NCBI GenBank assembly: GCA_030602785.1 | Contig: JAUVZB010000006.1 | Span: forward strand, 1-64,000 | DNA: 64,000 bases | Direction: 5' to 3' | Source: Dehalococcoidia bacterium | GTDB taxonomy: Bacteria > Chloroflexota > Dehalococcoidia > GIF9 > AB-539-J10 | Part shown: positions 2,910 to 51,037 of the stretch, in pieces | Layout of the letters: the number at the start of each line of letters is the position of its first letter | How positions within the stretch are numbered: position 1 is the first letter of the stretch | Notes under the pieces: generated by a model | What the model was told of the DNA's origin: nothing | Seen by the model: the letters and a program-made list of their open reading frames with translations, nothing else | The model's database searches: none | Made by a program: the position numbers and the translations under genes

Positions 2910-3299
2910 TCCAGCTTCGGTTTGACCGTCAGCCGTTCCGGCACTGCTGTTCGCAGCACGTGTCGGTTGCACCATATAGTGACCCAGTATCACTGTACTG
3001 CCATGCCCTTCCGATGTGAACCTCTGTGAGTCCCATCGGCCTGGGGTGGACACGTGCCGGCAAGGCTCGGCCGGCTCCTCACATCCACCATCCATCAGGC
3101 GCGGGTCGAGGGCCGTTCCTTGGGGGGACTCACTGCAGCCAGACCCATGGCTCACGTATCCGACGGCCCGCTTGCGCCCGGTCACGGCAGCAGTTACCAT
3201 AGCCGACCAGCACAGGCTGCCCGTCCTCGGGCCGGCTTCCACGTTGGAACCTGCCCGTCCTGTCAACACGATGTGCGCGGGGCAGCCAGGGAGACAACA

Positions 3300-4448
3300 A
3301 TGGAGTTCCTCGGCTACCCGCGTCAGGATGGAACCGCGGGCACACGCAACTACGTGGGCATCATCCCCACCGTCGGATGTGCCTGCGACACCGCACGACA
3401 GATTGCCGAGAGCGTCGATGGATGTGCGCTCTTCACCCACTTCCAGGGCTGTGACCACACGCCGGATGAGCTCGAAGTACTTCAACGAACGCTGGTGAAC
3501 CTGGGGCGACACCCGAATCTGTCGGCAGTCATCTTCGTCGGCCTCGGTTGCGAGCCCACAGACACCCACGAAGTAGCACAGCAGGTCTCGCTCTCAGGCA
3601 AGCCCGTAGAAACACTCGTCATTCAGAAAGAAGGCGGCACGATTGCCACAGTCGCGCGCGGTTCGCGCCTCGCCAGCGAACTGTCCGCCAGGGCTGCCGG
3701 CGCCACCAGGGAGCTCTGCCCCCTATCCATGCTCGTCTTCGGGGCCGAGTGCGGCGGGTCGGACGCGACTTCGGGACTGGCGGCAAACCCGGCCATCGGC
3801 AACGCATTCGACACACTGCTATCCGCGGGCGGGAGCGGCATCTTCAGCGAGACACAGGAATTCATCGGCGCCGAGCACCTTCTCGCGGCGCGCGCCTCCA
3901 CCCCGGAACTCGGCACACGCATACTCCAGATGGTGGCCGCTTGTGAGCAACGTTTCCTCGACAAGGGCGTGGATATGAGGGGCGCCAATCCTGCCAGGGG
4001 CAACATCGAGGGCGGCCTCACAACGATAGAGGAGAAGTCGCTTGGCGCCATTGCCAAGGGTGGCACGCATCCCATCGACGGCGTGTGCGAGTACGGAGAG
4101 CGCCCTGCCGGACACGGCCTCTTCGTCGTCAACGGAATGGGCATGGACTCCGAGAACCTCACGTGCCTGGTTGCGGCGGGCGCAAACGTGCTGTTCTTCT
4201 CTACAGGCAGGGGGACACCCATCGGGTTCTCGTTCGTCCCTGTCCTCAAGGTCACGGGCAATCCGGGCACGTACGAGCACATGAAGGACAACATCGACGC
4301 GTACGTCAATCTCGCCTCGTCGGGCACGATTGACGCCAGCGGGAGTCTCCTGTTCACCCGGGCAGTCGATGTTGCCTCGGGCGGGACTACGAGTGCTGAG
4401 TTGCTGCACCAGAGCACCTACAACGGCATCTGCGTGACCGGCCCTTGA
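3300..4448 (+). CDS. UxaA-family hydrolase/dehydratase large subunit, paralog 2
   Basis: MEFLGYPRQDGTAGTRNYVGIIPTV; ECGGSDATSGLAANP; GGLTTIEEKSLGAIAKGG; internal start chosen by alignment to the other paralogs. Confidence 0.88.
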   Translation: MEFLGYPRQDGTAGTRNYVGIIPTVGCACDTARQIAESVDGCALFTHFQGCDHTPDELEVLQRTLVNLGRHPNLSAVIFVGLGCEPTDTHEVAQQVSLSGKPVETLVIQKEGGTIATVARGSRLASELSARAAGATRELCPLSMLVFGAECGGSDATSGLAANPAIGNAFDTLLSAGGSGIFSETQEFIGAEHLLAARASTPELGTRILQMVAACEQRFLDKGVDMRGANPARGNIEGGLTTIEEKSLGAIAKGGTHPIDGVCEYGERPAGHGLFVVNGMGMDSENLTCLVAAGANVLFFSTGRGTPIGFSFVPVLKVTGNPGTYEHMKDNIDAYVNLASSGTIDASGSLLFTRAVDVASGGTTSAELLHQSTYNGICVTGP

Positions 4449-11446: not shown

Positions 11447-11734
11447 GTGAAACCCAAAGCCATCCTCATCGACACCAAGGACAATGTAGCCACGGCCTTT
11501 CAGGAACTCGCCAAAGGCGAGACGGTGACGGTCTCGCTCGCGGGTACTGAAGCGACCGCTGTGCTGACGCAGGACATCCCGTTTGGCCACAAGTTCGCGC
11601 TGTCCGCCATCGGGCTGCACGAGCCTGTTGTGAAATACGGAGAGACAATCGGACTTGCCACTGACCCCATACAGGCAGGCCAGCATGTCCATGTACACAA
11701 CATGGAGAGCCAGAAAGGAAGGGGGGACAAATAA
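11447..11734 (+). CDS. UxaA-family SAF-domain small subunit, copy 1
   Basis: 95 aa; GETVTVSLAG...DIPFGHKFALSAI...VVKYGETIGLAT..I.AGQHVHVHNM SAF signature; overlaps the next UxaA start. Confidence 0.88.
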   Translation: MKPKAILIDTKDNVATAFQELAKGETVTVSLAGTEATAVLTQDIPFGHKFALSAIGLHEPVVKYGETIGLATDPIQAGQHVHVHNMESQKGRGDK

Positions 11735-12888
11735 TGGACTTCCAGGGATATCGCAGGAAGACAGGCAAGGTAGGCATTCGCAACCACGTCCTCGTGTTTC
11801 CGACAGTCGTGTGTTCGTCCGAGGTCGCCCGCATGATCAGCGAGAAGGTGCCCGGCACGGTGTATGCGATTCATGGCGCCGGCTGCGGGCACATCGGCGA
11901 CGACAAAGACAAAGTCATCAGGACGATGGTGGGCATCTGCGGGCACGGCAACGTGGCCGGCGTCCTGCTTGTCGGCAACGGCTGTGAAGTCATCCAACCC
12001 GACCTCATCACCGCGGAGTTGGACAAGATAGGCCAGCGCTACGAGGTCGTGATCGTGCAGGAGGATGGCGGCACGCCCGGATGCATCGAGAGAGGAACGA
12101 AGCTCGCGCAGCAGATGGTCGAAGAGGCCAAGAGCGCGAAGCGGGAATCCATCCCCCTGTCCGAGCTGATGCTGGGCCTGGAGTGCGGCGGCTCGGACGC
12201 CTTCTCAGGTCTTACCGCGAACCCTTCTCTCGGCATCACTGCCGACAAGCTCATCGCTGAAGGAGGAACAGCCATTTTCTCCGAGACAACGGAGATGCTC
12301 GGCTGCGAACACGTCCTTGCGCGTCGGGCAACCGATAAGCAGGTCGCGCAGGACATCTACGACGCTATCTCCGCGGCGGAAGCCAGGGCAATGAGCGGAG
12401 GTGAAGACATTCGCGGCACGCAGCCATCACCGGGCAACATCAAGGGCGGACTAAGCAGTATCGAGGAGAAATCCCTCGGTTGCATCCGCAAGGGTGGCAG
12501 TACGCCCATCATGCAAGTCGTCAAGTACTCCGAGCATCCCAAGCGGAAAGGCCTCGTCATCATGGACGCCACAGCGGCAGACGTGATGAACGACACCGGA
12601 CTCCTGGCCTCAGGCTGCCATCTGATTGTGTTCACCACCGGCCGTGGCACACCGGTTGGCTCGCCGATTGCCCCGGTCCTCAAGGTGTCGACCAACAGTG
12701 TCCTGTACGGAAAGATGAAACCCAACATCGACGTAAACGCAGGCGTGATAGTCGACGGGGAGGGCACTCTCGAGAGCGTGGGACAACAGATATTCGACGA
12801 GGTCGTTGCGGCGGCCTCGGGCAAGCTCTGCCGTGCCGAGGAGCTCGGTCACCGCGAGTTCGATATCCACTTCGATATGCTCGTGTAG
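11734..12888 (+). CDS. UxaA-family hydrolase/dehydratase large subunit, paralog 3
   Basis: LECGGSDAFSGLTANPSLG; GGLSSIEEKSLGCIRKGG; directly coupled to the SAF subunit. Confidence 0.9.
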   Translation: MDFQGYRRKTGKVGIRNHVLVFPTVVCSSEVARMISEKVPGTVYAIHGAGCGHIGDDKDKVIRTMVGICGHGNVAGVLLVGNGCEVIQPDLITAELDKIGQRYEVVIVQEDGGTPGCIERGTKLAQQMVEEAKSAKRESIPLSELMLGLECGGSDAFSGLTANPSLGITADKLIAEGGTAIFSETTEMLGCEHVLARRATDKQVAQDIYDAISAAEARAMSGGEDIRGTQPSPGNIKGGLSSIEEKSLGCIRKGGSTPIMQVVKYSEHPKRKGLVIMDATAADVMNDTGLLASGCHLIVFTTGRGTPVGSPIAPVLKVSTNSVLYGKMKPNIDVNAGVIVDGEGTLESVGQQIFDEVVAAASGKLCRAEELGHREFDIHFDMLV

Positions 12889-14703: not shown

Positions 14704-14745
14704 TCGCCCAACAATCCACCTGAAATCTGACAAGGAGGCAACTTG

Positions 14746-15942
14746 ATGGAATTCCAAGGCTACCTCAGACAGGACGGTTCGGTCGGCGTTCGCAACATGG
14801 TGGCGCTCATCCCCGCATCCAGATGCGCCAACGAGATGGCGTGCCGTATCGCCGACGAGGCAGGCGCGGGAGTACAACCCTTGCTGCACAATCAGCCATG
14901 CGTGCACGTGGGCCCGGACAACGTGATGGCCCGCCGAGTCCTCACCGGAATGGGGCAGAACCCGAATACCGTCGCTGCGATTGTGCTCGGTATCGGCTGC
15001 GACCCGTTCTCGGCCTTCGATATCGCCAACGACATCGCCACCTCGGGCAAGCCTGTCGAGGCACTAACCATTGAGAAAGAAGGCGACTACGACACGGTGG
15101 TCACCAAAGGCATCGCATTCGCCAAGCAGATGAAAGCGGACGCCGCTCTTCTCACCAGGCAGCCGTTTGACCTCAGCCACATCAAGCTTGCAGTCAAGTG
15201 CGGCGGTTCCGACACAACGTCCGCCCTGGGCTGCAACCCGGTGGCGGGATGGGTGGTAGACCAGATTGTGAAGGCGGGAGGAACATGCGTCTTCTCCGAG
15301 ACGGCCGAACTCGTCGGTGCAGAGCACATACTGGCTCGACGCGCCAAGGACCCCGCCGTTGCGCAGAAGGTACTCGACGCCGTAGCACGCACAGACAAGC
15401 GCATCCTTGACGCCGGCGTCGACATCCTGGGTTCCGAACCGACACCTGGAAACATCAAGGGTGGCCTGACCTCGATAGAGGAGAAATCCCTGGGCGCAAT
15501 CGCCAAGAGCGGTACGGTGCCGCTCACAGACGTCATCGAGTGGGGCCAGACGCTTCCCGGTCCGGGACTGTTCTTCATGGACGGCTCAGCCAACACTCCA
15601 CAGATGGTGCTCGGTCTATCGGCTTCCGGAGCACAGATGATGACCTTCGGATTCGGCGGAGGGCTGCCTGCGAGTTTCCGGTCTATGCCTGCGAACTCCA
15701 TGGGCAACCTGGCCATACTTCCCGTCCTCAAGATACTGAGCAGCCCGAAGGCGGCCCGCGAGATACCCTACTTCGATATCTACGCCGGCGGCATCATCGA
15801 GGGAACCGAGACGGTGGCCCAGGTGGGGCAGCGCCTGCTCGAAGAGATACTCCAAGTCCTCTCGGGCAAACCGACCAAGGTAGAACTGCGACCACGATAC
15901 CGCGAAGTGCTGGAAATGTGGAGGCTCGGCCCCTCCTTCTAG
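14746..15942 (+). CDS. UxaA-family hydrolase/dehydratase large subunit, paralog 4
   Basis: VKCGGSDTTSALGCNPVAG; GGLTSIEEKSLGAIAKSG. Confidence 0.9.
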   Translation: MEFQGYLRQDGSVGVRNMVALIPASRCANEMACRIADEAGAGVQPLLHNQPCVHVGPDNVMARRVLTGMGQNPNTVAAIVLGIGCDPFSAFDIANDIATSGKPVEALTIEKEGDYDTVVTKGIAFAKQMKADAALLTRQPFDLSHIKLAVKCGGSDTTSALGCNPVAGWVVDQIVKAGGTCVFSETAELVGAEHILARRAKDPAVAQKVLDAVARTDKRILDAGVDILGSEPTPGNIKGGLTSIEEKSLGAIAKSGTVPLTDVIEWGQTLPGPGLFFMDGSANTPQMVLGLSASGAQMMTFGFGGGLPASFRSMPANSMGNLAILPVLKILSSPKAAREIPYFDIYAGGIIEGTETVAQVGQRLLEEILQVLSGKPTKVELRPRYREVLEMWRLGPSF

Positions 15943-17049: not shown

Positions 17050-18231
17050 ATGACTCAGTTCCAGGGATTCGAGAGGCCAAACGGCCTTGTCGGTGTTCGC
17101 AACACAGTGCTGGTCATGGCCGTCTGCGACTGCGGAGAGCCTGCAGCGCGCCAGATGGCCGAGGGAATCGAAGGAGCCGTGGCAGTCACCCAGTATCATG
17201 GCTGCGTCGCCCTCGAGACTGTCCCCATCATGATTGGAGCGGCACAGAACCCCAACGTATGCGGCACCGTTCTGGTCATGATGGGCTGCGAGGGCATGAG
17301 AGCCGAACCCATAGCCGAGCAGATAGCCACGACCGGCAAGCCGGTCGAGATAGTCAACATCCAGGAAATCGGCAGCACGAAGAAAGCGATAGCCAGGGGC
17401 CGTGAGATAGTCGCAGGGATGGCGCGAGACGCCGCCAGAGAACAGCGCAAGCCCTTCGACATCTCGAAGCTGGCCGTGGGTGTGAAGTGCGGCGGCTCGG
17501 ATACGACAAGCGGCATCGCCGCCAACCCAGCCATTGGCGTTATGTCAGACCTGATGGTCGACGCAGGCGCGCGTGTGCTGATGATTGAGCCAATCGAGGC
17601 CATAGGGGCCGAGGAAGAACTGGCCGGTCGTGCCGTGGACGCCAACGTCAGGAAGGACATACTGGCCTGGGTGGGCAACGACGAGAAGAGATGGTCGGTG
17701 CCGGGAGCCGCTGTGGACTTCATGTGCGGCGGCAACATCGCGGGTGGACTGACAACCCTGGAGGAGAAATCCCTGGGCGCGGTCCACAAGAGCGGTCACA
17801 GGCCAATCAGCGGCGTTCTCAAGGTATGCCCTGAGCACATAGACCATCTGCCCGCGAAAGGCGGCTTCTACCTCATGGAGGGCATCCACATCGAACTGCA
17901 GGCGATGACCTATCAGGCCGCAGCAGGCGTCAACGTCATCGTGTTTGCTACGGGAAGAGGCGGGAGTTTCGGCCATGCCGTCTCCCCGCTCGTCAAGGTG
18001 ACAGGTCACCCCGAGACGTGGGCGCGTATGAGCGAAGACATGGACGTGAACGCCAGCACCATTATGGAAGGCACTGAGTCCATTGAGTCAGTCGGCAAGC
18101 GCATATTCGACGAAGTGCTGGCCGTCGCCTCAGGCAAAGTCACCAAGGGTGAGGAACTCGGTTTCTATAACTTCAACATCTGGAAACAGGACCCGAGACT
18201 CGAGGCACTGCTGGGTCTCAAAGGAGGCTAG
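17050..18231 (+). CDS. UxaA-family hydrolase/dehydratase large subunit, paralog 5
   Basis: VKCGGSDTTSGIAANPAIG; GGLTTLEEKSLGAVHKSG; adjacent to SAF copy 2. Confidence 0.9.
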   Translation: MTQFQGFERPNGLVGVRNTVLVMAVCDCGEPAARQMAEGIEGAVAVTQYHGCVALETVPIMIGAAQNPNVCGTVLVMMGCEGMRAEPIAEQIATTGKPVEIVNIQEIGSTKKAIARGREIVAGMARDAAREQRKPFDISKLAVGVKCGGSDTTSGIAANPAIGVMSDLMVDAGARVLMIEPIEAIGAEEELAGRAVDANVRKDILAWVGNDEKRWSVPGAAVDFMCGGNIAGGLTTLEEKSLGAVHKSGHRPISGVLKVCPEHIDHLPAKGGFYLMEGIHIELQAMTYQAAAGVNVIVFATGRGGSFGHAVSPLVKVTGHPETWARMSEDMDVNASTIMEGTESIESVGKRIFDEVLAVASGKVTKGEELGFYNFNIWKQDPRLEALLGLKGG

Positions 18232-21029: not shown

Positions 21030-22223
21030 ATGGAATTCATGGGATATCCCCGGCCTAATGGCACACCGGGGGCACGCAACTACATCGCTGTTATTCCTGC
21101 CGTGCAGTGCGGGAACGAGTTGGCCGACCGCATCGCCAGCGAAGTGGGTGGCAACGTCGTTGCACTGCCCCACAACGGGGCGTGCGTCAACATCAAACCC
21201 GACAAGGACATGATCAGCCGAACCCTCGTTGGATTGGGCTGTAATCCGAATGTCGCCGGCGCCATTGTCGTGGGCATAGGGTGCGACGGCATCCCCGCAG
21301 ACCTAATCGCGGAAGGAATTGCCGAATCAAAGAAGCCCGTTGAACTGGTCACCATCGAGCGAGAGGGAAGCTACGAGAATGCGCTGGCCAGGGGTGTGCG
21401 CGCAGCGAAGCAGATGCTCGCGGACGCGTCCCTGCTTCAGAGGGAGCCCTTTGACATCAGCCACCTCACCTTTGCCTCGAAGTGCACAGGCTCAACGCCC
21501 GCCTCAATCATGGCTTGCAACCCGGCAGTCGGCTGGGCAGCGGACGCACTCGTCAAGCAGGGGGGCACGTTCATCTTCTCCGAGACGGCCGAGACAATCG
21601 GCGCAGAACACCTTCTGGCCCGACGAGCGGTCAACCCGGATGTCGCTAAGCGCATCGTCGACGTCGCGCTACGCATGGAACAACGAATGAAAGACTCCGG
21701 CGTGGACATACGAGGTTCCCAGCCGGTGCCCGGCAACATCAGGGGAGGCATGACCACCCTTGAGGAGAAATCACTCGGAGCAATCGCGAAGAGCGGCAAG
21801 AGCCCCATCGACGGAGTACTCGAATGGAGTGAGAAGCCGACAGGCAAGGGCATGTTCTTCATGGACGGCTCGGCCAACACTCCCCAGATATTCCTGGGCT
21901 TCTCAGCAGCCGGAGCCCAGGTGATGAGCCTCAACTACGGTGCAGGATTGCCGACGATGCTGCACAACTACACCGTTGCCGTAGGTGGCATGCCCGTCGT
22001 ACCGGTTCTGAAGGTATTCAGCAGCCCGCAGGACATCGCCCAGATGGACTATTTCGACGTCTACGCGGGAACGATTATCGAAGGCAAGGAGACAATCGCC
22101 GACGTAGGACTACGCATACTGGAGGAACTGGTCGCAATCGCATCGGGCAAGCCATGCAGGCAGGAGATGAACTCCCGCTATAAGGAAATGCTGGTCATGT
22201 ACTACACCGGCCCTCTACTGTAG
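21030..22223 (+). CDS. UxaA-family hydrolase/dehydratase large subunit, paralog 6 (divergent motif)
   Basis: MEFMGYPRPNGTPGARNYIAVIPAV; GGMTTLEEKSLGAIAKSG; divergent SKCTGSTPASIMACNP in place of KCGGSDTTSGIAANP. Confidence 0.87.
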   Translation: MEFMGYPRPNGTPGARNYIAVIPAVQCGNELADRIASEVGGNVVALPHNGACVNIKPDKDMISRTLVGLGCNPNVAGAIVVGIGCDGIPADLIAEGIAESKKPVELVTIEREGSYENALARGVRAAKQMLADASLLQREPFDISHLTFASKCTGSTPASIMACNPAVGWAADALVKQGGTFIFSETAETIGAEHLLARRAVNPDVAKRIVDVALRMEQRMKDSGVDIRGSQPVPGNIRGGMTTLEEKSLGAIAKSGKSPIDGVLEWSEKPTGKGMFFMDGSANTPQIFLGFSAAGAQVMSLNYGAGLPTMLHNYTVAVGGMPVVPVLKVFSSPQDIAQMDYFDVYAGTIIEGKETIADVGLRILEELVAIASGKPCRQEMNSRYKEMLVMYYTGPLL

Positions 22224-29350: not shown

Positions 29351-30749
29351 TCTACGATTCTGTCCTCCCCTAAGCGTTCAGCGAAAATGTCCGCATGCAG
29401 GAGATGCTGACATTGAACCGGAAGGAGCAGACACGATTACGGATACTGAACCATGTGGAAGGAGGGGGACTGAGAATGGGAGAGGCGGCGGAGATGATGG
29501 CGTTGTCGCTACGACAGGCACGGCGGCTACGCAAGGTGTATCGGAATATGGGTGCTGAAGGACTGGCGCACGGGAACCGGGGACGAAGGCCACACAACGC
29601 GGTTGACGCGGAGGTGGCGCAACTGGTGGTGGCGTTGACGAAGGAGAGCTATGCGGGAGTGAACCAGCAGCACCTGACAGAACTGCTTGAGGAGGAGAAG
29701 CAGATCTACCTGTCTCGGTCGACGGTGCGAAGAGTGTTGCTGCGCGCGGGGATACGGAGTCCGCAGACGCGCAGAGCGCCGAAGCATCGCAGCAGACGGG
29801 AGAGGAAGCCCCGTGAGGGGATGCTGTTGCAGGTGGACGGCAGTCCGCATGACTGGCTGGAAGGGCGAGGACCACGTCTGTGTCTGGTGGGAGCTATCGA
29901 TGACGCAACGAATCATGTGCCCTATGCGGTCTTCCGCAAGCAGGAGGACATCCAGGGGTACTTCACGATGCTGCGGCAGATAGTGAAGACGAAAGGGATC
30001 CCGCTGTCGCTGTACCACGACAAGCACACAATCTTCGTATCGCCGAAGAAGGAGGTGGAGTCGATAGACGGACAGCTGGCAGGGGAACGACCGCTGACGC
30101 AGGCTGGGCGGGCGCTTGCGGAACTCGGCATCACATCGATACCGGCTGACTCGCCCCAGGCCAAAGGCCGCATAGAGCGCCTCTGGCGCACGTTTCAGGA
30201 CAGGCTGGTGAGCGAACTGCGTCTGGCTGATGCGCGGGACATAGACGCAGCGACTCTGGTGCTACACCGCTTCCTGCCACGATACAACCGCAGATTCGTG
30301 GTGTCGGCAGCAGAGCTCGGGAGCGCGTATCGCCCTGTTGATCCAGGTCTCGATCTCGCCACGGTATTCTGTCTCAAGCACATGCGTACCGTAGGCTCTG
30401 ACAACGTGGTGCGCTTCAAAGGCCGCCGTCTCCAGGTGCTCCCGTCACATCACAGGACAAGCTACGCGAGGACCAGGGTCGAGGTCCATGAACGGATGAA
30501 CGGCAGTCTCGCCATCTACCACCAGTCTATGCGCCTCAACACCACCACCGCACCTCTTGAGGCCTCTGCCCTCAGAGCACACCGCAACGCGCAACAGCAG
30601 GTCGCAGCCATTCCCGAACTGCAGACACAATCCCCAACAACGCATCAACACAAACCAGCTCCGGATCATCCCTGGCGCAAGGCGTTCAAACCACAACGAA
30701 GAGAGAGGACATTATCGCTGAACAGTTAGGCGGACATTATCGCTGGACA
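29351..30749 (+). mobile_element. Insertion sequence, ISNCY/IS1202-like
   Basis: Transposase ORF bounded by related terminal sequences TGTCCTCCCCTAAGCGTTCAGCGAAAATGTCC (29361-29392) and, on the minus strand, TGTCCGCCTAACTGTTCAGCGATAATGTCC (30707-30736), with a second CAGCGATAATGTCC copy at 30732-30745; exact ends uncertain. Confidence 0.75.
29395..30729 (+). CDS. DDE transposase, ISNCY/IS1202 group
   Basis: N-terminal HTH; LQVDGSPHDWLEG (D), LVGAIDDATNHV (D), SPQAKGRIERLWRTFQDR (E). Confidence 0.9.
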   Translation: MQEMLTLNRKEQTRLRILNHVEGGGLRMGEAAEMMALSLRQARRLRKVYRNMGAEGLAHGNRGRRPHNAVDAEVAQLVVALTKESYAGVNQQHLTELLEEEKQIYLSRSTVRRVLLRAGIRSPQTRRAPKHRSRRERKPREGMLLQVDGSPHDWLEGRGPRLCLVGAIDDATNHVPYAVFRKQEDIQGYFTMLRQIVKTKGIPLSLYHDKHTIFVSPKKEVESIDGQLAGERPLTQAGRALAELGITSIPADSPQAKGRIERLWRTFQDRLVSELRLADARDIDAATLVLHRFLPRYNRRFVVSAAELGSAYRPVDPGLDLATVFCLKHMRTVGSDNVVRFKGRRLQVLPSHHRTSYARTRVEVHERMNGSLAIYHQSMRLNTTTAPLEASALRAHRNAQQQVAAIPELQTQSPTTHQHKPAPDHPWRKAFKPQRRERTLSLNS

Positions 30750-30750
30750 C

Positions 30751-30787
30751 CACGCATTCACTCCACGCATTCACTCTGCATTCACTC
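30751..30787. repeat. 13-bp tandem repeat, about 2.8 units
   Basis: CACGCATTCACTC CACGCATTCACTC TGCATTCACTC. Confidence 0.85.
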
Positions 30788-30931
30788 ATCCAAAATGTTA
30801 CTGGGGGGATATGGTTCACTCAGTTAGGAATGTTACTGAGGGGGATCATGCCGAGCGACGACAGGATGAGCATAGACTAGAGACGTAAGTACCTGAAGCT
30901 GGTAGCGCCCCGGTACGGCAGGGCAGGGCGG

Positions 30932-31855
30932 GTGGAACGTAGTGGGTTGCTGACAGAGATGGCAGCGGTGACGGGGCTGCACCGCAAGAGCCTGCTACGG
31001 CTGATGCACGGGCCGACGCTGGAGCGGGCACCTGGGAGGCCGAGGTTTCGGCGAAGACGGTATGGGGGGATGGTGGCTGACGTGGTGCGGGTGGTCTGGG
31101 AAAGCCTGGACTATGTGTGCGCGGAGCGGCTGACGCCGGAGCTGCTATCGACGGCACGGCACCTGGCCCGCTGGGAAGAGGTAGTGCTGACGCCCGAGAT
31201 GGAAGTGGCACTGGGGAGCATCAGCCGGGCCACGGTGCAGCGGCTGCTGCAGCGGTTCCAGCAGTACAGCCCGAAGCTCCCCCGGCGCAAGCCTCAGCCA
31301 CCCAATCGGCTCCTGCGCGAGGTGCCGATGGAGCGGTTGTCCTGGGCGATTGACTGCCCGGGCGCCTTTGAGACAGACCTGGTACACCACTGTGGGGCGG
31401 TCGCTGTGGGGGAGTACGTACACACCCTGCAACTGGTGGACATCGACCACCTGGTCGGCGAGATGCACATCACGGCAGACGGCCAATCGATGTACTAGCA
31501 CTCCGACCTGTCGGGCGGACAGGGCGGAATAGACATCTGGGTGGTGGAACGCCAGGGCGAGGGTTGCGGCACACCGCAAAACGTCGAAGCAGTCAACACT
31601 CCAGAGACGGACGGCTGGCCGTTTGTGACCGAAGACGGCAACGAGCTGTGGCTCACCCGCACGTACATGGGCACGCCTGCGCTCTATCGCTCGCGCATGG
31701 GACCGGATGGGTGGCAGGAACCGGATCTCATCGTATCGCAGTTCGCTGGTGAGGCATCACTGGACCAGGCCGGCAACCTGTACTTCACGCAGCATTTCTT
31801 CCACTCCGGGGAGATGCTGGAAGCTGACATCTACGTAGCCCGTCCCACGGGCTAG
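30932..31855 (+). pseudogene. Chimeric remnant: truncated IS transposase N-terminus fused in frame to a PD40/TolB-like beta-propeller C-terminus, with one internal TAG
   Basis: ORFs 30932-31498 and 31541-31855 share a frame (609 nt apart). Transposase-like up to HTLQLVDI; then GEMHITADGQSMY*HSDLSGGQGGIDIWVVERQ...DGWPFVTEDGNELWLTR, a PD40-like repeat pattern. Confidence 0.75.
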
Positions 31856-46203: not shown

Positions 46204-46968
46204 CTACTCTGCACCACACACAAAGAACTCGTACCCGTACCACTTCGCGTACTTCTTGTGGATGGCCATCTCAGTGTCGCACTCGTCGAACATGGCGAGG
46301 GCGTCGGGTGAGTCCGCGTACTTCTCTCGCAGCCCTGGCAGGCGCTTGAGCATCGGGGCGTAGTAGTCGTCCCACCAGGCGCGGTCCGGCAGGTGGAAGT
46401 GGCCGACTAACTCGAAGCCGCAGTCGCGAATCAGCTCCACGTTGTCCTCGACTGACTTCATGTCCGGGTAACCCTGAGCCCAGAAGTCGCGCAACTCCTG
46501 CGGAGGGTCGGCCCTGACCCACGACGCTTCGCTCGCCACGAGGTAGCCGCCGGGTTTCAGCAGTCTCCGACAGGCACGGAGCGCGTTCTCGAAGCCCATG
46601 ATGTAGAGCGCACCCTCGGACCAGATGAGGTCGAAGGTCTCTTCACGGAAGTCCATTGCATCCATGGACTGCTTCGTTGTGCGCACGCGGACGACCAGTC
46701 CCGCCTGCACAACCTTCTCCGACACTCTGTCCAGTGCCCAGTCGAACACGTCCAGCGCGATGATGTGCCCCGGCATCAGCTTCGCCAGCTCTATGGTCTG
46801 TGCCCCGGTGCCACAGCCGATGTCCAGCACGGTCGGCCGCTCCGGCAGCGGGCCGAGCATCGAGAACGCCTTCCGAGTGCTCGCAGTATTCCCGGGCCCC
46901 TGCCGGGGAAGCGGGCCGTAGAGGTCGGCCATGAGCGCCTCGATGCCAGCTGTCATCTCAGACATGTC
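46204..46968 (-). CDS. Class I SAM-dependent methyltransferase
   Basis: PTVLDIGCGTGAQTIELAKL, FREETFDLIWSEGALY. Confidence 0.9.
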   Translation of the reverse strand, partial: DMSEMTAGIEALMADLYGPLPRQGPGNTASTRKAFSMLGPLPERPTVLDIGCGTGAQTIELAKLMPGHIIALDVFDWALDRVSEKVVQAGLVVRVRTTKQSMDAMDFREETFDLIWSEGALYIMGFENALRACRRLLKPGGYLVASEASWVRADPPQELRDFWAQGYPDMKSVEDNVELIRDCGFELVGHFHLPDRAWWDDYYAPMLKRLPGLREKYADSPDALAMFDECDTEMAIHKKYAKWYGYEFFVCGAE

Positions 46969-47043
46969 ATTCACCCCCAAGTGTTACGGGGCAATTCTAC
47001 CCCAACGTCGCGCGACGTTTCTCATCGAGAGGGCTTGCACTGA

Positions 47044-47077
47044 GCACCTCCGCATGGTTGCAACCGTGTGGAGGTGC
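47044..47077. other. 34-bp imperfect palindrome upstream of the truncated cbiQ
   Basis: GCACCTCCGCATGGTTG|CAACCGTGTGGAGGTGC, 17 pairs (15 Watson-Crick, 2 G-T). Confidence 0.75.
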
Positions 47078-47086
47078 AACTGATAG

Positions 47087-47431
47087 CGTTCGCACAAAGC
47101 TACACAGGAGCCCTATGAGACGTTCCGCGACCTGCAGCGGATGCAGCCGGCGATGCGACTGCGAGGCTTCAAGGCAGGGGGCTTTGGAGTACGGCGCCTG
47201 CCCACGTCCGCGTGGCGCGGCGGCAGCGTGCTCGTCAGAAGCTACGAGCGCTCCGAGTCGGTATGCAGGGCCATGCTACTCCGGGGCTACGGTGCGGCAG
47301 GGAGCCATGGCATCGAGTTCAACGCGCACCGGAGAGATGCTCTCCTCCTCTCTCTTTTCCTCACGCTGGCGGCAGCATTCGTCGTAGCCGACATCGCGTG
47401 TGGACACGGTTCGGCGTCTCTACTACAATGA
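47087..47431 (+). pseudogene. 5'-truncated CbiQ / ECF transporter T-component remnant
   Basis: YETFRDLQRMQPAMRLRGF...VLVRSYERSESVCRAMLLRGYG...LLLSLFLTLAAAFVV is CbiQ C-terminal-like; in-frame stop TAG at 47084-47086 and no N-terminal TM region upstream. Confidence 0.75.
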
Positions 47432-48122
47432 CCGCAACGTGTTCCACGAAGACTCACCAGCCCCTGTAGTTGCGGCGCCCGAACTCGCTCTTGAGGTCTC
47501 AGGGCTGCAGTTCTCCTATCCCGATACCCCCGATGTGCTCTGCGGCGTGAGCATCGCCGTGCGGCCGGGCGAGGAAGCCGGGCTCATCGGCCCCAACGGG
47601 TCGGGCAAGACAACCTTCTTCCTCCAGGTATGCGGCGTGCTGAAGCCGTCGTCGGGGCAAGTACTGATATTCGGAAGGCCGGTCATCAACGGCTCCTTCA
47701 GGCCGGAGGTGGGGCTGGTATTCCAGAACCCCGACGACCAGCTATTCTGCCCGTCGGTGCGCGACGACGTAGCATTCGGCCCGCGGAACATGGGCCTCTC
47801 AAAGGAGGAGGCCGGGTCCCGCGTGTCCGACGCGCTGTGCACGGTCGGTCATCTCGACCTCGCCGACAGGCCGTCGCATCACCTGTCCGAGGGAGAGAAG
47901 CGGATGGTCTCGATCGCGGGAGTGCTTGCCATGCAGCCCCGGCTCATCCTGGAGGTATGCTCACGGGTGCTGCTGATGGACAACGGCCGAATCGTGGCCG
48001 ACGGCCACCCCGCTACGATAATGGCGGACGACGATCTCATGGAGACCCACGGCCAGGAGAAGCCCCACTCGCTTGTGCCGCATGTGCTGCGACACGAGCA
48101 CCATATGAGCACGACCCACTGA
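47400..48122 (+). pseudogene. CbiO-like ECF/nickel-cobalt ABC ATPase lacking the Walker B/H-loop segment
   Basis: LIGPNGSGKTTFFLQ (Walker A), FQNPDDQLF (Q-loop), LSEGEKRMVSIAGVLAMQPRLI then directly LEVCSRVLLMDNGRIVADG; LDEPTxGLDP...THD region absent. Confidence 0.8.
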
Positions 48123-48156
48123 GCGGCCGACGGACCAACTAAGGAGCAGACAGCCA

Positions 48157-49467
48157 ATGGAAGGCGGCAGAACACTCTACCTTGACCCGTTCTCGGGCAT
48201 CGCCGGCGACATGTTCCTGGGGCTTCTCATGGACCTCGGCGCCGACGAAAACATTCTCGTCGAGGAGTTTGAGCGGCTCGGAGTCCGCTTCGACCTCGCA
48301 GTGAGCCGCGTTAACAAGAACGGAGTATCAGCTGTCAGCACGAAGGTGACACTGGCAACCGACGACGAGGGCGGCGAAGAACACGGCCATGACCACGAGC
48401 ACACGCATGAGCACGACCACGAGCATACGCACGAGCACGACCATGGCGACACGTACGATAGCGACGAAGCGACCCCCCACGGATCCGCCATGCAGCTATC
48501 GGAGATATTCGAGATGCTGGGGCGGCTGAGCGAGCCAACGCAGAGCAAGACGAAGGAGATGTTCACCGCGCTGGTGGAGGCCGAGGCACAGGTGCACGGC
48601 ACAACGGCGGACTCGGTGCACCTGCACGAGGCAGGCGCCGTCGACGCCATCGTCGAGATAGTGGGCGCCGTGAAGGGGCTCGAATTGCTTGGCGTCGACC
48701 ATGTCTGCTGCGGGCTTGTGAATACGGGTACGGGATTCGCGCGCATGGCACACGGCAAGTACCCCGTGCCGACGCCGGCGACTGCTGAGCTGCTGAAGGG
48801 AATCCCCGTGCGCATGGACTCCGTCGGCGGCGTTCGCGCGGAGCTTGTCACGCCCACCGGCGCGCTCATCCTGAGCCAGCTCGTGGACGAGTACGGCCCC
48901 GTCAGCATGACCGTCGAGCGCATCGGCTACGGCGCAGGACAGCGCGACCTGGAGATTCCGAATGTCGTGCGCGGATACCTGGGCCATTCCGCGTCAGGGG
49001 ACGCAGCCAAGCGGCTCGCCCTTCTTGAGAGCAACATCGATGACATGAACCCGGAACTGTACGGCCACCTCATGGACCTGCTCTACCAGGGAGGCGCGCT
49101 CGACGTGTTCTACACGCCGGTGCAGATGAAGAAGAATCGCCCGGGGGTACGCATATCGGTCCTTAGCGAGGTGCACCGGAAGGACAGCCTCATCGACACG
49201 CTGATGAAGGAGAGCTCCACACTCGGCGTGAGGGTGAGCTACCCGGAGCGCTTCGAGGCAGAGCGAGAGGCACTCGACGTCGAGACGGAGCTGGGCACAG
49301 CGCGCGTCAAGGTGGCGCACTACCGCGGTCAGACGGTGAACGTCTCGCCCGAATACGAGTCGTGCCGCCTGCTGAGCAAGCAGTCCGATGTCGCACTCAA
49401 AGAGGTCTACAGCATCGTACTCGAGGCGGCGCGGGCACAACTCGGGCAGAGGGAGGCAGGCAACTGA
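48157..49467 (+). CDS. larC: Nickel-pincer cofactor biosynthesis protein LarC
   Basis: LYLDPFSGIAGDMFLGLLMDLGA, His-rich linker, HLHEAGAVDAIVEIVGA, LLESNIDDMNPELYGHLMDLL. Confidence 0.94.
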   Translation: MEGGRTLYLDPFSGIAGDMFLGLLMDLGADENILVEEFERLGVRFDLAVSRVNKNGVSAVSTKVTLATDDEGGEEHGHDHEHTHEHDHEHTHEHDHGDTYDSDEATPHGSAMQLSEIFEMLGRLSEPTQSKTKEMFTALVEAEAQVHGTTADSVHLHEAGAVDAIVEIVGAVKGLELLGVDHVCCGLVNTGTGFARMAHGKYPVPTPATAELLKGIPVRMDSVGGVRAELVTPTGALILSQLVDEYGPVSMTVERIGYGAGQRDLEIPNVVRGYLGHSASGDAAKRLALLESNIDDMNPELYGHLMDLLYQGGALDVFYTPVQMKKNRPGVRISVLSEVHRKDSLIDTLMKESSTLGVRVSYPERFEAEREALDVETELGTARVKVAHYRGQTVNVSPEYESCRLLSKQSDVALKEVYSIVLEAARAQLGQREAGN

Positions 49468-50246
49468 TGGCCGAACGACGGATGTTCGACGACGTACTGC
49501 AAGCCTACAGGCTGGGAGAGGTGGACGAGGAGGAGGCCGGCGCGAGGATACTCGAGCTGTTCTACGAGGGACAGGAGCACTTCCTCCTCGACATGGAGCG
49601 GGAGAGAAGGCTCGGCTTTCCGGAGGTTGTCTACGCGGAGGGAAAGCTCACGGGCGACCTGCTCGACATCGTCGGCCGCGTGCTTCAGAGCAACGGCAGG
49701 GCGTTCATTGCGAGCCTGAGCCCGGAGGGGGAGCAGAAGCTCCAGGAAACCTTCCACTCACACCGCATCAAGACAGCCGGCAGGGTAATGGTCATCGGCT
49801 CGGACGAGAGCGCGAAGGAGCAGCTCGGCACAGCCGGCGTCATCACTGCAGGCACATCCGATGTGCCCTTCTCCGAGGAGTGCGCACTGCTGCTCGAGGA
49901 GCTGGGCGTCAATGTGGTCAGGTCATACGACTCCGGCGTGGCCGGCATCCACCGGCCCTTCATGAGCCTCCGGCGCATGAAGGAGGCGAACGTCCTCGTC
50001 GTATTCGCCGGCATGGAGGGGGCGCTTCCCACCGTGCTGGCCTCGCTCACGGACATGCCTGTCATCGCCGTCCCCACCCCCATCGGCTACGGATTCGGCG
50101 GCCAGGGTGAGGCGGCGCTCATGACGATGCTCCAGAGCTGCTCCCCCGGCGTGACGGTCGTCAACATCGGCAACTCGGTCGGCGCCGCAGCGGCAGCCGT
50201 GCGGATACTGAGGGCAATACGGAGGGGTCAATCACAGAACGGTTAG
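49467..50246 (+). CDS. larB: Nickel-pincer cofactor biosynthesis protein LarB (NCAIR mutase-related)
   Basis: PEVVYAEGKL, AGTSDVPFSEECALLLEELG, AGMEGALPTVLASLTDMPVIAVPTPIGYG. Confidence 0.94.
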   Translation: MAERRMFDDVLQAYRLGEVDEEEAGARILELFYEGQEHFLLDMERERRLGFPEVVYAEGKLTGDLLDIVGRVLQSNGRAFIASLSPEGEQKLQETFHSHRIKTAGRVMVIGSDESAKEQLGTAGVITAGTSDVPFSEECALLLEELGVNVVRSYDSGVAGIHRPFMSLRRMKEANVLVVFAGMEGALPTVLASLTDMPVIAVPTPIGYGFGGQGEAALMTMLQSCSPGVTVVNIGNSVGAAAAAVRILRAIRRGQSQNG

Positions 50247-50263: not shown

Positions 50264-51037
50264 GTGGCGAGGCGCGGCAGGCTGGTCGTGCTCTACTCGG
50301 GTGGCCTCGACAGCACCCTTCTCGCGAAGCTGGCATACGACGCGCTCGATAAGGATGCCGCCGCGCTGACAATCGACTCGGCGGTCGTCCCCCGGAGCGA
50401 GATCGCCGCCGGGCGGGCACTTGCCACCGAGATCGGCATCCGCCAGCACGTGTTGCTGCTGAACGAGTTGGAGCAGGAGCACTTCAAGGTGAATCCGCCC
50501 GACCGCTGCTACCACTGCAGGAAGGCGCGCGACGCCGCCGCGTGGCGCTGGGCCGGGACAAACGGCTATCCAACGATAGCCGATGGGCTGAGCTACTCGG
50601 ACCTCGACGACTACCGTCCCGGCCTGAAGGCCGCTACGGAGGACCTCATCTGGCATCCGTTCATCGAGTTCAAGGTGGGCAAGGAGGAGATACGAGAGTT
50701 CTCACGCGAACTGGGTCTCACTGGCTGGGACCGCCCCAGCGTGGCCTGCCTGGCCTCGCGCTTCCCACACGGGTATCCGGTCACGCGAACACGTGTGGAC
50801 CGTGTGGACAGGGCTGAGGAATTCCTGCGCGGTCTCGGCTTCGAGAAGGTGCGGGTGCGGCACTTTCCGCACAATCTAGCCGTAGTAGAGGTGGGCAACG
50901 CCGAGCGTGCGCTACAGCAGCGCGACCTCATAATCTCGCGGCTGAGGGAACTTGGCTTCTCCTTCGTATCGCTGGACCTCGAAGAATTCGCGAGCGGTAA
51001 GATGAACAGGACGGTCGACCAGCAAACAGCGGGCTAG
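50264..51037 (+). CDS. larE: ATP-dependent sulfur transferase LarE
   Basis: VVLYSGGLDSTLLAKLA PP-loop, PPDRCYHCRK, PSVACLASRFPHG; follows larB directly. Confidence 0.92.
   Translation: MARRGRLVVLYSGGLDSTLLAKLAYDALDKDAAALTIDSAVVPRSEIAAGRALATEIGIRQHVLLLNELEQEHFKVNPPDRCYHCRKARDAAAWRWAGTNGYPTIADGLSYSDLDDYRPGLKAATEDLIWHPFIEFKVGKEEIREFSRELGLTGWDRPSVACLASRFPHGYPVTRTRVDRVDRAEEFLRGLGFEKVRVRHFPHNLAVVEVGNAERALQQRDLIISRLRELGFSFVSLDLEEFASGKMNRTVDQQTAG

Follow-up and report, generated by a model that had tools for sequence, protein, structure and literature searches.

The DNA analyzed here (referred to below as the window) is a stretch of 64,000 nt from a Dehalococcoidia bacterium, which carries on its plus strand the intact genes larC (48157..49467; PF01969, TIGR00299 and NF052512), assigned to nickel insertion, larB (49467..50246; NF033503) and larE (50264..51037; TIGR00268). 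An AAGGAG ribosome-binding site of its own precedes larC, and the genome encodes three LarA-type proteins at other loci. To the left lies a divergent methyltransferase gene (46204..46980, minus strand) which, as established by profile HMMs and comparison with genomes of the same genus, is the conserved left neighbor of larC. Between the two, on the plus strand, are found the remnants of nikQ (47114..47431), encoding the T-component of an ECF transporter, and of nikO (47439..48122), encoding an ECF ATPase of the CbiO/NikO type, with a putative promoter (47401..47429) across their junction. Several further observations were made on LarC and on the remainder of the window. Positions 48380-48460 encode a His/Asp/Glu-rich repeat insert of LarC (HGHDHEHTHEHDHEHTHEHDHGD), possibly a nickel-binding stretch, which varies in length among the congeners; second, separate LarC-like fragments are present at L159 (G000:C80:391-804) and L160 (G006:C81:3202-3615), matching only positions 238-366 of PF01969, i.e. 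the LarC2 part. At 1680-22223, interspersed with genes resembling those of TRAP transporters and dehydratases, six similar proteins with a UxaA/altronate-dehydratase-like start, M-x-F-x-GY-R-x-x-G-x-x-GxRN, form an unusual local expansion (1680-2909, 3054-4448, 11734-12888, 14743-15942, 17050-18231 and 21030-22223). Two neighboring ORFs that resemble integrases/transposases (29395-30729 and 30932-31498) occupy 29395-31498.

A preceding sequence-only reading described the ORF at 47400-48122 as a CbiO-like ATPase that retains the Walker A, Q-loop and signature motifs and has lost, in frame, Walker B, the D-loop and the H-loop, and both parts of this description hold. The ORF is homologous to ECF ATPases and contains Walker A (GPNGSGKTT, 47589..47615), the Q-loop QNPDDQLF with the Q-helix motif NPDxQ, and an LSGGQ-type signature (LSEGEKR, 47883..47903). 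Alignment with the intact NikO proteins of four relatives (L014, L015, L029 and L031), a check proposed in that reading, displays a 38-column gap, so that the 35-40 missing residues estimated before are exactly 38 (114 nt, in frame). The lost segment extends from YDEPSANLD through SHDLE and comprises the Walker B strand LLLYDEP, the D-loop SANLD, the next helix and the H-loop SHDLE, so the Walker B glutamate and the H-loop histidine are both gone; its equivalent in the CbiO of 5X3X is LLLDEPTAGLD...FSTHDVEL. The lost motif had been anticipated as LDEPTxGLDP, whereas the relatives of the remnant carry YDEPSANLD instead. After the signature, the remnant reads ...MQPR-LIL-EVCSRVLLMDNGRIVADG, and 3' of the gap the alignment with intact NikO picks up again at LILEVCSRVLLMDNGRIVADG. 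The breakpoint, CTCATCCTG, falls within 47943..47951, its exact base being ambiguous, close to the previously suggested 47945-47955. CbiO/ECF-ATPase profile matches to the ORF at 47400-48122 end at residues 183-184, and because of the deletion the best models, TIGR01166 and TIGR04520, score under their cut-offs. Over the shared columns, nearly all of which are 5' of the gap, the remnant is 61-72% identical to its relatives; given this identity and an alignable C-terminal part that continues past the gap, chance resemblance is of no concern. The product of the remnant is predicted to be incapable of binding Mg-ATP properly and of hydrolyzing it.

The earlier description of the loss as "precise" does not imply selection. 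In the relatives, the segment corresponding to the gap has L-x-L codons at each of its ends, in identical codon phase, and in L014 and L015 about 7 of 9 bases are shared between the two, so that a deletion between these short repeats, by recombination or slippage, would yield an in-frame product without any selection. Such a deletion probably left a single L-x-L copy, here CTCATCCTG at 47943-47951, as judged from the relatives. No long direct repeat remains at the breakpoint in the window.

The other components of the importer are affected as well. Of the T-component, the nikQ remnant encodes only the ~105 aa at the C-terminus, among them the coupling-helix region, whereas the N-terminal ~160 aa are missing: the remnant matches PF02361 at positions 156-210 of 216 only, and in tblastn searches with four intact NikQ proteins the alignment begins at residue ~158 of intact NikQ. 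In the intact relatives the gene order is nikM-nikQ-nikO; here, no NikM is encoded between the nikQ remnant and the divergent methyltransferase gene upstream, and no CbiM/NikM S-component was detected in 6 congeners or in the genome of the window, whose completeness is 95%. A search for another intact CbiO, also suggested by the earlier reading, yielded no close candidate in the window genome, where the best other ABC protein is at most 40% identical, and neither NicO nor HupE/UreJ nickel permeases were found there. Since only the tail of NikQ is left and CbiM/NikM, a second close NikO, NicO and HupE are all missing, the importer as a whole is broken: the complete T-component and the S-component that make up a functional group I ECF nickel/cobalt importer along with its ATPase are not there, and with a dead ATPase and no membrane partner, no transport is predicted to be possible. 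The nikO ORF is clearly homologous to a functional family and has lost both essential parts and its partners, as is characteristic of a gene remnant. The other CbiQ of the genome (G000:C50) was considered as a partner and rejected, as it adjoins a fused tandem ATPase and belongs to a separate ECF-type system. As a separate observation, the intact nik loci L029, L031 and L164 encode, upstream of nikM, a Fur-type regulator, a small secreted protein with a His/Cys-rich tail and a short membrane protein.

The sigma-70-like element at the junction, TGGACA-N17-TACAAT (47401..47429), covers the last codons of nikQ (TGT GGA CAC ... CTA CAA TGA, coding for C G H ... L Q stop) and the stretch before nikO, and it is the only promoter-like site in 46981-48160 (plus-strand scan, up to 3 mismatches). 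The GTG at 47400, from which the ORF was originally counted, overlaps the -35 box of this putative promoter, and the intact homologs start at a site equivalent to GTG 47439; the start was therefore reset to 47439, which probably is the true one and gives an ORF of 227 aa (47439-48122). In the window as well as in L029 and L031, the start codon in the nikO frame is located 9 nt after the -10 hexamer (7 nt in L013), a spacing that suggests a near-leaderless nikO mRNA.

The five same-genus genomes with a full-length larC (G001-G005) all contain methyltransferase-larC-larB-larE in the same order and orientation, with 63-77% protein identity, and in each of them the spacer of about 144-182 nt between the methyltransferase gene and larC is devoid of matches to nik coding sequences. 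When the congener spacer is compared with the window by BLAST, one short match is obtained, at the nikQ/nikO junction of the window. The element common to the window and the congeners is TGGACA (TAGACA in G004)-N17-TACAAT. Each of these six genomes contains the pattern TRGACA-N17-TACAAT exactly once: the five congeners carry it just upstream of larC, and the window genome at the nikQ/nikO junction. In a shuffled 64-kb window, 0 occurrences are expected by chance. This pattern was set after the alignment had been viewed; hence, as an independent test, the five congener promoters, none of which adjoins a nik gene, were made into a profile, with which 858 kb of sequence comprising nik and other loci were scanned. 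The window ranked highest (E 7e-6), followed by L029 (E 0.025) and by L031 (E 0.15); the latter two are marginal individually, and all three matches are at the nikQ/nikO junction. In L013 and L014, TAGACA-N17-TACAAT is also present at the junction, with weak overall similarity, and the element is absent from the junction of L015. Because the best matches to the profile derived from the congeners come from the window and two intact nik operons, and lie at the junction itself, the lar promoter of the congeners looks like a fossil of a nikQ/nikO junction promoter.

Taken together, these findings are best explained, with a high degree of confidence, by the ORF being the nikO remnant of a group I ECF nickel/cobalt importer that once preceded larCBE in the ancestor of the genus and is now being lost. 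The order of events that we infer begins with an ancestor that would have carried nikM-nikQ-nikO in front of larCBE, with the promoter at the nikQ/nikO junction. In the lineage leading to the window genome, the losses would have taken nikM and the greater part of nikQ, and nikO would have been hit by the 114-nt deletion, whereas in the five sister species everything except the junction promoter would have been deleted. The junction promoter, which formerly would have started nikO, probably still works and would now drive larCBE, the genes predicted to make the nickel-pincer cofactor. More tentatively, this internal promoter may have outlived the genes on both of its sides and become the sole promoter of larCBE, the dead ATPase gene of the window species staying translatable only on account of its position in between. 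As a whole, the feature is an ordinary gene remnant; the story of the inherited promoter is unusual.

The two remnants differ in their apparent constraint. In NikQ, 8 of the 39 residues that are invariant in five relatives are changed (0-4 in the others), including W>S, Y>C and L>R, as expected under relaxed constraint, whereas the 8 changes at 87 invariant sites of the NikO remnant are within the range of intact genes (1-10). The nikO remnant contains no stop codon or frameshift, and its third-position bias is normal; its GC3 is 0.82, against 0.81-0.85 for the neighbors. Accordingly, from the open frame and the lack of excess change at conserved sites, it appears that either nikO was inactivated recently or its frame continues to be constrained to some degree; neither a simulation of stop codons nor the codon-position distances decided the timing. 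One possible source of constraint is that the remnant heads the larCBE transcript and is maintained for being translated there, rather than for its product, such that an out-of-frame lesion would leave ~700 nt untranslated and cause Rho-dependent polarity. The genome does encode Rho, the only promoter-like site lies upstream of the remnant, the probability that all 227 codons would stay free of stops under neutral substitution is 0.20 at 0.1 and 0.04 at 0.2 substitutions per site, and NikQ, which is relaxed, is outside the putative transcript. Nevertheless, we consider selection of this kind unlikely, given that recency accounts for the same facts, that larC has a ribosome-binding site of its own and that a cryptic nearer promoter could exist.

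A still less probable scenario is that the nikQ-nikO fragment is no leftover of an ancestral operon but arrived from elsewhere by a recent insertion into the ancestral spacer between the methyltransferase gene and larC. It is consistent with the nik-lar linkage not being found outside the genus among the loci compared, nor being visible in G027, where nik and lar occupy separate contigs, nikO lying at the end of its own, and with the presence of nadC, rather than lar, downstream of nik in L014 and L029. However, the larC promoter of the congeners matches the nikQ/nikO junction itself, which indicates that the junction predates the gene loss; a recently inserted fragment would have had to carry a promoter nearly identical to the resident one and deliver it to the correct spot, and the GC3 of the remnant is native. 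Of the two readings offered from the sequence alone, the early pseudogene is supported by the truncated NikQ, the absent CbiM/NikM and the five congeners without nik. The other, a non-catalytic paralog that would serve in regulation or as a structural component, would fit the intact Walker A, Q-loop and signature, the open frame and the normal rate of change at conserved sites; it is nonetheless very improbable, because there is no transporter, that is, no cognate T- or S-component, and no close partner ATPase, the loss from the nucleotide-binding core is gross as opposed to the point changes typical of degenerate sites, and none of the congeners examined has the gene. An assembly or binning artifact, with 114 nt collapsed or the contig foreign, might be invoked for a metagenome-type assembly of 141 contigs with 5% contamination, but is very unlikely given the lack of a long repeat at the breakpoint, the independent truncation of NikQ, the genome-wide absence of NikM, the synteny with congeners on both sides of the contig and the GC3 shared with the neighbors.

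A broken transporter gene alone is ordinary; the comparison of congeners turns the decay of the importer into a small, clear case of operon loss caught part-way, in which a promoter-like element located at a coding junction in the intact nik operons can be followed to a free-standing position in front of larCBE. It also has a consequence for annotation: if the ORF were labeled an ECF/cobalt ATPase, a nickel importer would be attributed to a genome that lacks it, although nickel is needed there for three LarA-type proteins. In sequence, the remnant resembles the NikO/CbiO proteins, such as that of CbiMQO from Rhodobacter capsulatus (PDB 5X3X and 5X40), with which it shares Walker A, the Q-loop/Q-helix NPDDQLF, the signature and the C-terminal part. 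The order nikQ-nikO is also that of CbiMQO-type importers, from which the window differs by the missing Walker B, D-loop, H-loop and NikM and by the truncated NikQ. Heterodimeric ABC transporters with a degenerate nucleotide-binding domain have lost catalytic motifs in one ATPase; such domains keep the fold and an active partner, whereas the remnant is devoid of a 38-aa core segment and of the membrane part. On lar-linked nickel transporters, no direct text was found in the open literature. A parallel is Lar(MN)QO of Lactiplantibacillus plantarum, reportedly a lar-linked nickel importer of lactic acid bacteria, in which the ECF nickel importer genes are said to adjoin the nickel-pincer cofactor genes, as they do here; in contrast to that system, the importer in these genomes is broken or absent, and only larCBE has stayed intact.
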